Below, in pieces: positions 2,335-6,058 of a stretch of 12,865 bases of DNA (within the stretch, counting starts at the first letter, position 1; each line of letters opens with the position of its first letter). The DNA comes from an uncultured Candidatus Nemicrothrix sp. (GTDB taxonomy: Bacteria > Actinomycetota > Acidimicrobiia > Acidimicrobiales > Acidimicrobilacustridaceae), in NCBI GenBank assembly GCA_903827085.1, contig CAIKHC010000420.1:1-12865 (forward strand), written 5' to 3'. Made by a program: the position numbers and the translations under genes. The notes under the pieces were generated by a model. It worked only from the letters and a program-made list of their open reading frames with translations. It searched no databases and had not been told where the DNA came from.

Positions 2335-3002
2335 TGCGCGTCGTCATTGCAGGTGGTGGAAACGTTGGCACCTACATCGCCACCGAACTCCAGCAAGCAG
2401 GTCACGAAGTTCTGATTGTCGAAGTTGATCCCGCTCGTGTTGCTCAGGCGCAAGCCGACGGTGAACCCGCAGGCGTGAAGTGGCTGGCAGTCGATGGTTG
2501 TGAAGTTTCCGAGTTCGCAAAGGCTGAACCCGATCGCGCCGACGTTGTTGTTGCCGTAACCGGTGATGACGAAGACAACCTGGTCATCTCGCTGCTTGCC
2601 AAGCAGGAATTCAGCGTGCCTCGTGTTGTTGCTCGAGTGAACAACCCTTCGAATGAGTGGATGTTCAACGCGAGTTGGGGTGTCGACGTTTCAGTGTCGA
2701 CTCCGCACTTGCTCACCGCACTCGTTGAAGAAGCGGTCACGGTTGGCTCGCTCGTTCGTATCATGACGTTCGAAAACGACGCAGCGCGCCTTTCCGAAAT
2801 TCGTCTCGCCGAGTCATCACCTGCCAACGGCGTCTCGATCGCGAACCTCGGTCTTCCTCGAGAGTCCACGATCGTTGCGGTAGTGCGTGACGGCAAGGTC
2901 ATCTTCCCCCGAGGCGACGTCACGCTCGGCGCTGGTGACGAGGTTCTTGTTCTGGCTGTGGCTGAATGCGAAGAGGCAGTCCGTAAGGTCCTCGTCGGCT
3001 GA
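2334..3002 (+). CDS. trkA: TrkA-type K+ uptake regulatory subunit (second copy)
   Basis: Second RCK-domain subunit, 222 residues, probably a heteromeric partner of the preceding protein in regulating a potassium channel. The Rossmann motif GGGNVG is at 7-12, with glutamate at position 30, the residue that usually holds the NAD ribose. The RCK_C domain occupies roughly 140-222 (GDVTLGAGDEVLVLAV near the end). The open frame extends upstream to 2076 inside the first trkA, but the true start is the ATG at 2334: AAGGAGGT (2318-2325) lies 8 bases before it and the fold begins at its first residues. The start overlaps the stop of the first gene. The downstream gap holds the candidate riboswitch and no convincing terminator, apart from a small 3019-3034 stem. 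Confidence 0.93.
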   Translation: MRVVIAGGGNVGTYIATELQQAGHEVLIVEVDPARVAQAQADGEPAGVKWLAVDGCEVSEFAKAEPDRADVVVAVTGDDEDNLVISLLAKQEFSVPRVVARVNNPSNEWMFNASWGVDVSVSTPHLLTALVEEAVTVGSLVRIMTFENDAARLSEIRLAESSPANGVSIANLGLPRESTIVAVVRDGKVIFPRGDVTLGAGDEVLVLAVAECEEAVRKVLVG

Positions 3003-3059
3003 TTCCCTCTCCTTTGTGGTCGGGGAGACCCGACTATGAATCGCCGCGATTTGCGGCCA

Positions 3060-3065
3060 TACTGT
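3060..3065 (+). promoter_or_regulatory. Candidate -10 box for the riboswitch-ATPase transcript
   Basis: TACTGT fits the TANNNT form seen before several genes in this window. It would start transcription at about 3071-3073, just before the first paired base of the candidate aptamer (GAGG, 3075). No good -35 box is visible 16-18 bases upstream. Confidence 0.35.
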
Positions 3066-3070
3066 CCAAC

Positions 3071-3180
3071 CAGTGAGGGGAGTATCCCATCGCAGCGGTG
3101 TCGTCATCACGGCGCAACGGCTTTCGAGCCCGAGCTCCCGGTGCCGCTGGTTCATTCGCAACAAACTCGTCGGTCCTCGG
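3071..3180 (+). ncRNA. Candidate yybP-ykoY (Mn2+) riboswitch aptamer
   Basis: Seen in sequence: GGGGAGTA (3077-3084), the conserved first-loop signature of yybP-ykoY RNAs; TGTCGTCATCACGG (3099-3112), matching the conserved GUCGUCANNACGG core; and CCGGTG opposite it (3138-3143). Helices fit the family layout: GAGG (3075-3078) with CCTC (3175-3178) as the closing stem, CAGCGG (3093-3098) with CCGCTG (3144-3149), and a distal GGCT-TTCG-AGCC hairpin (3119-3130). Known: this class senses Mn2+ and commonly precedes P-type cation ATPases, TerC and MntP exporters. The match is from remembered consensus (Rfam RF00080), not a covariance search. The 3' segment before the closing stem departs from the usual GCAAGACC, and pairing around the distal stem is imperfect. 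Confidence 0.65.
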
Positions 3181-3209
3181 ATCTTCGAAAGCGGATGAGC
3201 GGGAGAGAC

Positions 3210-3264
3210 CTCCGGTCGGCGAACCATTCTCGGTTCCCCAATCGTCTATATGACATGACCGGAG
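3210..3264 (+). promoter_or_regulatory. Anti-Shine-Dalgarno helix, riboswitch expression platform
   Basis: CTCCGGTC (3210-3217) is the exact reverse complement of GACCGGAG (3257-3264), whose last four bases are the Shine-Dalgarno of the ATPase. Pairing can extend outward through AGAG (3204-3207) with CTCT (3266-3269) across a small internal loop. A competing helix, GGTCCTC (3172-3178) with GAG-A-GACC (3203-3210), shares bases with the aptamer closing stem. That is the arrangement expected of a translational switch. Which state exposes the ribosome-binding site is not settled by sequence alone. Confidence 0.5.
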
Positions 3265-3271
3265 ACTCTTT

Positions 3272-6058
3272 ATGACCCTTCATTCGACCGAACAGCAACA
3301 CGATGACTGGTGCACGCTCCCCAGCGACGAAGTTGTTCAGCGCCTAGCGGTCAACGCCAGCACAGGGCTCTCTCATGCAGAAGTTGCCGATCGGCGCGCG
3401 CTTCACGGATCCAACCGGCTGACCGAACCACCTCGTCGCTCAAAGTGGCTGGTGTTCATTGATCAGTTCCGTGCCGGAATTGTTTACGTCTTGGCCGGTG
3501 CCGGTCTGATCGCTGGCTTGTTGGGCGACATTAAAGATCTCGTCATCATCTTCGTGGTTCTCATCATCAACGCCATCATGGGCTTTGCCCAAGAGGCGAA
3601 GGCATCGAATGCGCTGGCAGCCCTTGAGCGCATGCTGGTCACTCAGGTTCGGGTGCGTCGCAATGACGTCACTGACGAAGTGGCGATCGATGAACTCGTT
3701 CCTGGCGACATCGTCTTGCTTGAGGCCGGCGATCGAGTACCAGCCGACGGCCGATTGCTACTCGCAGCAAATTTGTCTGTCGATGAATCGAGCCTGACGG
3801 GTGAATCCGTTCCCGTTGAAAAGCGCGCCGATGCGCTGACATCAGCAGGTTCGCCAATTGGCGATCGCCTTGGCATGGTGTTTATGAACACCACCGTTAG
3901 TCGTGGCCGAGCCGAAGTTGTTGTGACTAGCACTGGCATGGCCACCGAAATGGGCAAGGTCGCCGAGATGCTTGTCTCCGCGAAACCATCGAAGACCCCG
4001 CTCGAACGTCAACTCGATTCGCTCAGCAAAACTCTGGCGATGATCGCCGGAGCAGCGGCATTCATCGTGTTCGTTATCCAATGGATCATTGAACAGAATT
4101 TCAAAGACGCCCTTCTTGGCGCCGTGGCCCTCGCTGTTGCAGCCATTCCTGAAGGTCTTCCTGCCGTCGTTACGGTCACCCTGGCAATTGGTATCTCGAA
4201 GATGGCGAAGCAGAACGCCATCGTGAAGCGTTTGCACTCAGTCGAGACACTCGGATCAACATCGGTTATTTGTTCAGACAAAACCGGCACACTCACGCTG
4301 AATCAGATGACCGCCCGTGAAGCGTTTCGTGGCGGCGAGGTCTGGTTGGTAGATGGCGGGGGATACGGCACCGAAGGAACCATCACCTCTTCGGGTGGTC
4401 GTGTTGTCACGCCGGAATTTTCCACCGATGCACTTCTGCCGGCAGCGTTGTGTTCCGACGCCGTTCTTGTGCCGCATGCACCTGATGGTCCGGGAATCAT
4501 CGGTGATCCAACCGAAGCAGCTCTTGTTGTCATGGCAGCAAAAGCCGGACTCGATGCGCCAACGGAACGTGCGCTCCGCCCGCGTCTCGCCGAGGTCCCG
4601 TTCGATTCAGCCACCAAGTTCATGGCCACGTTCCACCTGGCCGATCCGAACTCGCCGAACGGCGATGTCCTGATCTGCGTAAAGGGCGCACCCGATGTTG
4701 TCCTTGGAATGTCGACCACCTTCTCTGAACCCGATGGTTCGGAACAAGTGCTCGACGCCACAGCGCGTGGGTTCCGTCGCTCCGATAACGACGGGCTCGC
4801 TTCGCAGGGCATGCGGGTCCTTGCTGTCGCCACACGCCGCGTTCCCGCTTCGCAGATCATCGACGCCAACGGCACGGTGACCAATCCTGAAAGCTGGATC
4901 AGCGACCTTCGACTCGAACTTCTTGTTGGCATTGTCGACCCAGCTCGGACTGAAGCCCGCGATGCGATTGCGTTGTGTCATCGCGCCGGAATCGACGTCA
5001 AGATGATCACTGGCGATCACGCAGTGACGGCCGGTGCTATCGCTGCTCAGTTGGGTATTCAGGGCGAGGTTGTTACCGGCGACGATCTCGACGCAATGTC
5101 TGACGAGGAATTGTCGGCTCGGATCGGCGCAATCGCGGTATGCGCCCGCGTCTCCCCAGAGCACAAGGTGCGAGTCGTCGAAGCACTTCGAAGCAACGGT
5201 GAGATTGTCGCAATGACCGGAGATGGCGTGAACGACGCCGCCGCCTTGCGACGTGCCGACATTGGCGTAGCGATGGGTATCACCGGAACGGAAGTCACCA
5301 AAGAAGCCGGCGACATGGTTCTCGCCGACGACAATTTCGCCACAATTGTTGAAGCCGTGCGCGGCGGCCGAGCCGTCTACGACAACATCCTCAAGTTTGT
5401 TCGATTCCAAGTAGCGACCGCATTCGGCGCAATCGCCACAATTCTTGGAGCCTCAGCGTTCGGGCAGCATGTGCCGTTCTCGCCAATTCAAGTGCTTTGG
5501 GTCAACTTGATTGCAGATGGACCCACCGCGGTTTCGCTTGGTGTCGACGCCCCCGCACCGGGCCTCATGAATCGCAAACCGATTCCCGCCGATGCAGTGA
5601 TTCTCAGTCGACGCCGTCTGAGTCAGGTCATGTTTCAAGGTTTCGTTACCGCCTTTGGGGTGCTCGCTGTTTACCTCTTTGCGATCAATGAATACGAACC
5701 CGATGTCGCAAAGGGCGAGGTACCCGTCGTCGCAACGACGATGGCGTTTACTGCATTCGTGTTCGCACAGTTAGTGAACGTCTACAACGCTCGTTCTGAA
5801 ACTTCATCACTCTTTTCGCGGTACACACTGACCAACTGGAAACTCGGTGCGTCGGTTGTCATCGTATTCTTCTTGCAAATCTTGCTGACAGTCTTTGAGC
5901 CGATGAAAAATCTTTTCGATACTTCGTCGCTTACCGCCACACAGTGGGGACTATGTCTCGTACCGCCGCTGTTACTGCTTGTAGCGGTGGAACTGTGGAA
6001 GTTGGTTGTCCGTAGCCGCGTCACTCGCCCGACGACGATCGACTCAAGCGATGAATGA
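3272..6058 (+). CDS. P2-type cation ATPase (Ca2+/Mn2+ efflux type)
   Basis: Integral membrane pump, 928 residues, coupling ATP hydrolysis to cation export. In order: cation-ATPase N-terminal domain (about 10-80), actuator motif TGES (176-179), TM4 PEGLP (293-297), phosphorylation motif DKTGT with Asp336, nucleotide-domain KGAPD (471-475), TGD (580-582), hinge GDGVND (650-655), and a C-terminal membrane bundle (about 700-912). By manual alignment with SERCA, site II ligands are kept (Glu294, Asn745, Asp749). Site I is lost: N768 is Ala717, E771 is Ala720, T799 is Ala748, E908 is Gln833. That resembles PMCA and the Golgi SPCA/PMR1 pumps, as does DGPxAxSLGV in TM6. The ATG has GGAG 7 bases upstream. 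The candidate Mn2+ riboswitch ahead suggests Mn2+ efflux, but PMR1 Gln783 is Val754 here, so Ca2+ remains possible. Confidence 0.95.
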   Translation: MTLHSTEQQHDDWCTLPSDEVVQRLAVNASTGLSHAEVADRRALHGSNRLTEPPRRSKWLVFIDQFRAGIVYVLAGAGLIAGLLGDIKDLVIIFVVLIINAIMGFAQEAKASNALAALERMLVTQVRVRRNDVTDEVAIDELVPGDIVLLEAGDRVPADGRLLLAANLSVDESSLTGESVPVEKRADALTSAGSPIGDRLGMVFMNTTVSRGRAEVVVTSTGMATEMGKVAEMLVSAKPSKTPLERQLDSLSKTLAMIAGAAAFIVFVIQWIIEQNFKDALLGAVALAVAAIPEGLPAVVTVTLAIGISKMAKQNAIVKRLHSVETLGSTSVICSDKTGTLTLNQMTAREAFRGGEVWLVDGGGYGTEGTITSSGGRVVTPEFSTDALLPAALCSDAVLVPHAPDGPGIIGDPTEAALVVMAAKAGLDAPTERALRPRLAEVPFDSATKFMATFHLADPNSPNGDVLICVKGAPDVVLGMSTTFSEPDGSEQVLDATARGFRRSDNDGLASQGMRVLAVATRRVPASQIIDANGTVTNPESWISDLRLELLVGIVDPARTEARDAIALCHRAGIDVKMITGDHAVTAGAIAAQLGIQGEVVTGDDLDAMSDEELSARIGAIAVCARVSPEHKVRVVEALRSNGEIVAMTGDGVNDAAALRRADIGVAMGITGTEVTKEAGDMVLADDNFATIVEAVRGGRAVYDNILKFVRFQVATAFGAIATILGASAFGQHVPFSPIQVLWVNLIADGPTAVSLGVDAPAPGLMNRKPIPADAVILSRRRLSQVMFQGFVTAFGVLAVYLFAINEYEPDVAKGEVPVVATTMAFTAFVFAQLVNVYNARSETSSLFSRYTLTNWKLGASVVIVFFLQILLTVFEPMKNLFDTSSLTATQWGLCLVPPLLLLVAVELWKLVVRSRVTRPTTIDSSDE

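Follow-up and report, generated by a model that had tools for sequence, protein, structure and literature searches.

A probable yybP-ykoY (Mn2+) riboswitch of the compact alx-like form upstream of a P-type ATPase gene in an uncultured member of the Acidimicrobiia

The leader at positions 3070-3264 of the window, the whole stretch of 12,865 nucleotides of Candidatus Nemicrothrix sp. DNA analysed here, is very probably a yybP-ykoY (Mn2+) riboswitch; it would belong to the compact alx-like form, which has no P2, and would act through a translational ON platform. This assignment is drawn from the sequence, namely from the fold, the covariation, the class-specific residues in L1 and L3, the homology to the E. 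coli alx leader and a CCTC segment that is common to P1.1 and to the helix that hides the Shine-Dalgarno (SD) sequence. The gap is flanked by two TrkA-like genes on one side and by a 928-aa P-type ATPase gene on the other, the latter starting at 3272 directly 3' of the leader, in agreement with the link to an ATPase made in the initial annotation. The interval proposed in that annotation ended at 3180 and proves too short, as the aptamer appears to run to about 3212 and the expression platform to 3264. The class itself is known and the leader is a further case of its alx-like form; the interest lies in the spread of this form and in its absence from the standard RNA-family library. The leader would also explain a probable tie of an actinobacterial pump gene to Mn2+. 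Among the papers listed by the literature searches, none was found that describes such a leader from Acidimicrobiia or treats it as a form general to actinobacteria. The annotated features are as follows.

3058..3065, + strand: candidate -10 region (CATACT 3058-3063 / TACTGT 3060-3065)
3075..3078, + strand: 5' strand of P1.1, GAGG, the putative switch helix (partner 3209-3212)
3079..3084, + strand: 5' strand of internal loop L1, GGAGTA, matching the class consensus
3085..3088, + strand: 5' strand of P1.2, TCCC (partner 3201-3204)
3089..3092, + strand: four-base linker at the place of P2, predicted three-way junction (from row lengths)
3093..3103, + strand: 5' strand of P3.1, CAGCGGTGTCG, 11 pairs with 3139-3149
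3104..3110, + strand: L3 heptamer TCATCAC; A3106 corresponds by position to the Mn-coordinating A41/A48
3111..3138, + strand: P3.2 hairpin, GG 3111-3112 with CC 3137-3138, distal stem variable (alignment, RNAalifold)
3139..3149, + strand: 3' strand of P3.1, CGGTGCCGCTG (covariation)
3150..3200, + strand: P4 hairpin, GTTC 3150-3153 with GAGC 3197-3200, distal part variable in length (covariation)
3201..3204, + strand: 3' strand of P1.2, GGGA (covariation)
3205..3208, + strand: 3' strand of internal loop L1, GAGA, equal to the GAGACC block of canonical members
3209..3212, + strand: 3' strand of P1.1, CCTC, shared with the anti-Shine-Dalgarno (covariation)
3210..3217, + strand: putative anti-Shine-Dalgarno CTCCGGTC, eight contiguous pairs with 3257-3264, nine with one G-U
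3257..3264, + strand: GACCGGAG with the Shine-Dalgarno GGAG at 3261-3264, seven bases before the ATG at 3272
3272..6058, + strand: putative controlled gene, PMR1/SPCA-like P-type ATPase of 928 aa (NCBIfam, structure matches)

The two conserved blocks on which the class had been proposed, GGGGAGTA at 3077-3084 and, 14 bases after it, TGTCGTCATCACGG at 3099-3112, were found in this order when their coordinates were rechecked, and the strands CAGCGG (3093-3098) and CCGCTG (3144-3149) do flank the second block. The order and spacing of the blocks recur in 35 aligned leaders and the pattern is found in at least 118 stretches, therefore they are not a product of chance. A GAGG/CCTC closing stem also exists, with the CCTC at 3209-3212 pairing in all 35 leaders, but the CCTC within 3071-3180 is not the partner. 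This only CCTC of that interval (3175-3178) was rejected: it is kept in three of the 35 leaders and replaced by a gap in 30 and by other letters in two, the three being the window and two leaders from one near relative, and it lies in P4. The leader pattern continues past the earlier interval and reads GAGG-GGAGTA-nCCC, short linker, P3.1, TCATCAC, GG, hairpin, CC, P3.1', hairpin, GGGn-GAGA-CCTC. The 3' half of the aptamer occupies 3197-3217, where GGGAGAGACCTC is the counterpart of the AGACC block taken to be missing. The absence of GCAAGACC that had been reported is thus not borne out, since 3201-3210 holds its equivalent, GGGA-GAGACC. The leader departs less from the class than had been claimed, although the distal stem of P3.2 is indeed variable. 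The linker at the place of P2 has four bases in 54 of the 59 rows of the wider set described below and three to seven in the remainder; a four-way junction was rejected as there is no room for P2. In the window and in the near-identical leaders L003, L004 and L041, the distal part of P4 (3154-3196 in the window) exceeds that of the next relatives by about 19 bases, with the rest of the aptamer kept.

When the leader was used as a DNA query against 99 genomes, 36 of them, including the source genome of the window, gave a match at E<=0.01, and 35 non-identical leaders including that of the window were aligned with MAFFT. From this alignment and with no structure given, RNAalifold returned 30 pairs, which include all 25 pairs drawn by hand and cover P1.1, P1.2, P3.1, P3.2 and P4. 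Standard pairs make up 96.6% of the 875 cells and 56 cells carry double changes. None of 500 shuffles reached either of these two values, three of 500 reached the count of pairs with double changes and four of 500 that of further pair types, and sliding the partner strand brought pairing down to 43-54%. The wider set consists of 59 matches (58 distinct rows) to R1, a covariance model built only from the 35 leaders, through which the rows were fitted to the structure; 14 of the 58 sources were already in the first alignment. In these structure-fitted rows 98.3% of cells pair and 219 double changes are found, with no shuffle out of 500 reaching any of the measures and slid structures pairing at 37-56%.

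Changes on both sides were observed among the 58 distinct rows in three of the four P1.1 pairs, in nine of the eleven P3.1 pairs and in all four P4 pairs. P1.1 covaries between GAGG/CCUC and GAAGG/CCUUC, and its outer pair changes from G-C to A-U in five of the 35 leaders. In P1.2, UCCC/GGGA is exchanged for CCCC/GGGG in eight of them. The initial annotation had named two findings that together would speak against the class, no match to the Rfam model RF00080 and no conservation or covariation in related leaders; only the former was found, conservation and covariation both being strong. Together with the match of R1 to E. coli alx, they uphold the membership in the yybP-ykoY class.

The 5' strand of L1 reads GGAGTA in 58 of the 59 rows and its 3' strand reads GAGA in 55 and AAGA in four. 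Within L3, the second position (C) and the third (A) are invariant in all 59 rows and positions 1 and 4-7 vary; this invariance is partly by choice, since both R1 and the strict sequence pattern select for conserved bases. By its position, the invariant A of L3 would be the Mn-coordinating adenosine. The L3 sequences reported for X. oryzae and L. lactis are ACAUACU and UCAAUUC, in which the A in third position contacts Mn2+ via N7, and an A of L1 is reported to make an A-minor contact (PMC6754395, PMC9190785).

If the candidate -10 region is used, transcription would begin near 3070-3072, where the aptamer has its foot. The TANNNT box proposed initially is there (TACTGT, 3060-3065), but no -35/-10 pair was detected by a generic promoter scan. 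Upstream of the 35 aligned leaders, an ATACT pentamer (3059-3063 in the window) occurs in 26 and TANNNT in 23, counts for which no chance level was computed.

Rfam at its gathering scores returned nothing in the window. RF00080, a search with which had been suggested over the leader, gave no match at E<=10 in a relaxed scan of 2900-3400, none at the leader position in the window's own genome and none at these leaders in 23 genomes (own and 22 relatives). Matches elsewhere at E<=10 were found in 17 of the 23, the best being 5.5e-6 in G030. Similarly, no family was matched when 20 R1 loci were compared with Rfam at gathering scores. RF00080 (Rfam 15) at its gathering score also misses both alx (L225) and mntP (L224) of E. 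coli K-12, which are verified Mn2+ riboswitches, therefore its silence in the window says little and is not decisive. The structure line of RF00080 has no P1, and where P2 would stand it shows a hairpin. R1, on the other hand, matches the E. coli alx leader with 34 bits (E 2.1e-8 in 4.5 kb) and the mntP leader with 9.7 bits (E 0.079 in 4.5 kb). On the eight loci pointed to by RF00080 in the phylum scan described below, R1 without filters matched L047 (3.7e-13), L048 (5e-5), L049 (0.0019) and L046 (0.0067) at the same places; the other four do not fall below E 0.01, with L052 at 0.016 and nothing below 0.6 in the remaining three. One R1 member, L099, has an L3 of exactly ACATACT and is matched weakly by RF00080, with 15 bits (E 0.025 in a search of 251 bases).

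The anti-Shine-Dalgarno segment at 3210-3217 overlaps the 3' strand of P1.1 by three of its four bases, and 3257-3264 has a ligand-free pairing probability of 0.975-1.0 when 3071-3290 is folded. A set of 153 unique aptamers was obtained with the strict pattern, 147 of them with enough downstream sequence for comparison. Allowing a pairing offset of 0-2 from the first C of CCTC, a contiguous anti-SD helix of at least 7 bp was found in 120 of the 147 loci against 24% of shuffled downstream sequence, and one of at least 8 bp in 69% of loci against 10% of shuffles. Anti-SD segments swapped in from other loci still pair (59% at >=7 bp, 31% at >=8 bp) because part of the helix is constant; among the 120 loci with the helix, positions 4 and 6-10 are occupied by more than one type of pair. 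A form of the test counted from the first C of CCTC only, which gave 90 of 147 loci at >=6 bp (22% of shuffles), was set aside as it missed the window's own genus, whose SD lacks the last G. The 116 loci that combine such a helix (>=7 bp) with an open reading frame (ORF) were folded. Without ligand, the SD helix has a probability above 0.5 in 109 of these and P1.1 in none. Several relatives carry TTGATG where the window has ATG (3265-3274), and the start codon may shift by one codon.

The default state is thus predicted to be OFF, and holding P1.1 is predicted to turn it ON. Since the P1.1 3' strand also pairs with the SD, Mn2+ should switch translation on, which is the direction reported for the class (PMC6754395, PMC9190785, PMC9603457). 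In the mechanism we propose, Mn2+ would dock L1 onto L3 during RNA synthesis, the docking would hold P1.1, the CCTC would then not be free to pair with GGAG, and the PMR1/SPCA-like pump would be translated and remove the excess Mn2+. The calculated aptamer state lies above the energy minimum by 10.1 kcal/mol on 3071-3271, and, before the SD is made, by 3.5 on 3071-3220 and 2.5 on 3071-3256. The aptamer is not the fold selected by energy models that leave out tertiary contacts; switching would therefore require kinetic control or a strong drive from the ligand, and the gap that is small before the SD and large after it suggests that the decision would be made during transcription.

The best NCBIfam family of the pump is TIGR01522 (659 bits, below the cut-off of 798), and among solved structures it comes closest to ATP2C1 and to lmo0841, a Ca2+-ATPase of Listeria. 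In 135 of the 147 loci, an ORF of 90 aa or more begins no further than 15 bases from the SD helix. BLAST clustering sorted these into 94 TerC/Alx, 34 P-type ATPase (a share inflated by the close relatives of the window), four AMP-binding acyl-CoA ligase, two M48/HtpX and one baeRF family 3 protein, each cluster being named from one representative by Pfam, and three of the five also by NCBIfam. The TerC representative belongs to the NCBIfam family R_switched_Alx, and no MntP cluster occurs among the 135. We know of no link to Mn2+ for the AMP-binding acyl-CoA ligase, and these four of the 135 genes count against the Mn2+ reading. The ligases are FadD-like and belong to the window's genus (aptamers at L026:1496-1591, L032:3092-3187, L033:2586-2681 and L034:2376-2471); their leaders have a P1.1 of GAAGG/CCTTC, with its own complement on the SD side. 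The aptamers preceding an HtpX/M48 protease gene are L035:2991-3113 and L069:1501-1605. At L075 two aptamers (1501-1593 and 2227-2322) lie on opposite strands of one locus, the second before the baeRF family 3 gene. A Mn2+ regulon elsewhere in the window's own genome was sought and rejected, the one R1 match being that of the window. The genome has one TerC gene (L226, G000:C39:2282-2845), and neither GGGGAGTA nor GTCATCACGG was present in the 3.6 kb searched there; no MntP was found in the genome.

Given a pump of the Ca2+/Mn2+ PMR1/SPCA type, the same RNA class and fold could answer to Ca2+, to Ca2+ with Mn2+ or to alkaline pH rather than to Mn2+ alone. Such a signal would suit a pump whose best families and structures are Ca2+ ATPases; the S. 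pneumoniae mgtA aptamer is reported to bind Ca2+ more tightly than Mn2+ (PMC9495176), and the E. coli alx reporter is reported to respond to pH 8.5 as well as to Mn2+ (PMC9603457). However, mgtA transcription is reported to be activated more by Mn2+ than by Ca2+ (PMC9495176), the same aptamer is followed by TerC/Alx genes in 94 of 135 loci, and there is no variation in the base whose N7 contacts Mn2+, hence we regard this reading as unlikely. A slightly lower probability is given to a Mn2+ riboswitch that acts mainly on transcription, by Rho or by pausing, with the ribosome site secondary. In E. coli, an action of Rho on mntP has been reported (PMC11647493), but the SD-hiding helix is kept in most loci and no terminator was found in 2950-3330 in a search for the intrinsic type alone.

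It is highly improbable that the leader is instead a protein-bound conserved element or an RNA thermometer that has converged on the Mn2+ class. The excerpts of the literature searched yielded no binding data for this RNA, which leaves some room for convergence, but the L1 strands, the L3 heptamer, the order of the helices and the regulon all agree with the class and R1 reaches as far as E. coli alx. The lack of any Rfam match is the single point in favour of a chance resemblance within an ordinary intergenic gap, a reading that we consider refuted by the conservation, the covariation and the occurrence of the pattern in named genomes.

The alx-like form has a wide distribution within Actinomycetota. 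Under filters that lose weak matches, R1 matched at E<=0.01 in 66 of 395 genomes of the taxonomic class and, in a sample of 396 genomes of the phylum, in 68. RF00080 run over 119 phylum genomes gave eight matches at E<=0.1, none over its cut-off, and at least 24 of these 119 genomes carry an R1 match at E<=0.01 (overlap counted by genome handle). In the named-genome collection, at least 118 stretches carry the pattern GGGGAGTAYYCC-N(8-20)-TCGTCATCACGG; 116 of the 118 stretches listed are, judging from the organism names, presumably from Actinomycetota. The genera among those listed include Nonomuraea, Cellulomonas, Kribbella, Saccharopolyspora, Actinomyces and Microbacterium, together with two Mycobacterium sp. 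Two pattern matches (L129, L185) preceding TerC-cluster genes fall outside Actinomycetota, in records that bear the titles Acidobacteria (MAG) and Larsenimonas salina, where contamination or transfer is possible. The yybP-ykoY class is reported from more than 75% of the taxonomic groups used in one study, the groups including Corynebacteriaceae and Mycobacteriaceae, which are not necessarily carriers (PMC3766115). As the alx-like form escapes the present Rfam model, Mn2+ regulation in this large phylum would be undercounted by Rfam-based surveys. We see it as an evenly balanced proposition that the compact alx-like form, lying below the Rfam threshold, is a common Mn2+ sensor of Actinomycetota and that some Acidimicrobiia have recruited it for the control of an acyl-CoA ligase and of the HtpX protease, through which lipid activation and membrane protein quality control would come under a signal of Mn2+ (or Mn2+/Ca2+).

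Among the known systems compared, the aptamers of L. lactis yoaB and X. oryzae share with the window the L1 and L3 docking elements and a seven-base L3 with an invariable A (PMC6754395, PMC9190785), whereas the reported crystal structures from X. oryzae and L. lactis have a four-way junction (PMC6754395) instead of the three-way junction predicted for the window. In Actinomycetota, the terC leader cg2157 of C. glutamicum was assigned to yybP-ykoY from Rfam (2013 model, 49.13 bits) and detected by RNA-seq in a study that lists RF00080 leaders of this species, and it is likened to the window here by that annotation (PMC3890552). S. pneumoniae mgtA resembles the window as a class member with a three-way junction that stands before a Mn2+/Ca2+ P-type ATPase, as described in a review, and differs from the translational platform predicted here in that it is said to act on transcription (PMC9495176). 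E. coli alx, like the window, has GGGGAGUA followed by the GAGACC loop, a short linker instead of P2, and a P3.1, and its L3 (UCAUUAC) is one base apart from that of the window (UCAUCAC). The two differ in the length of P4 and in the downstream gene, which is TerC/Alx in E. coli, as at most loci with the aptamer, and a P-type ATPase in the window. Since E. coli alx has a short linker in its alignment to R1 and mgtA is described as a three-way junction, P2 was not counted as defining for the class, and the P2-less form is not new.
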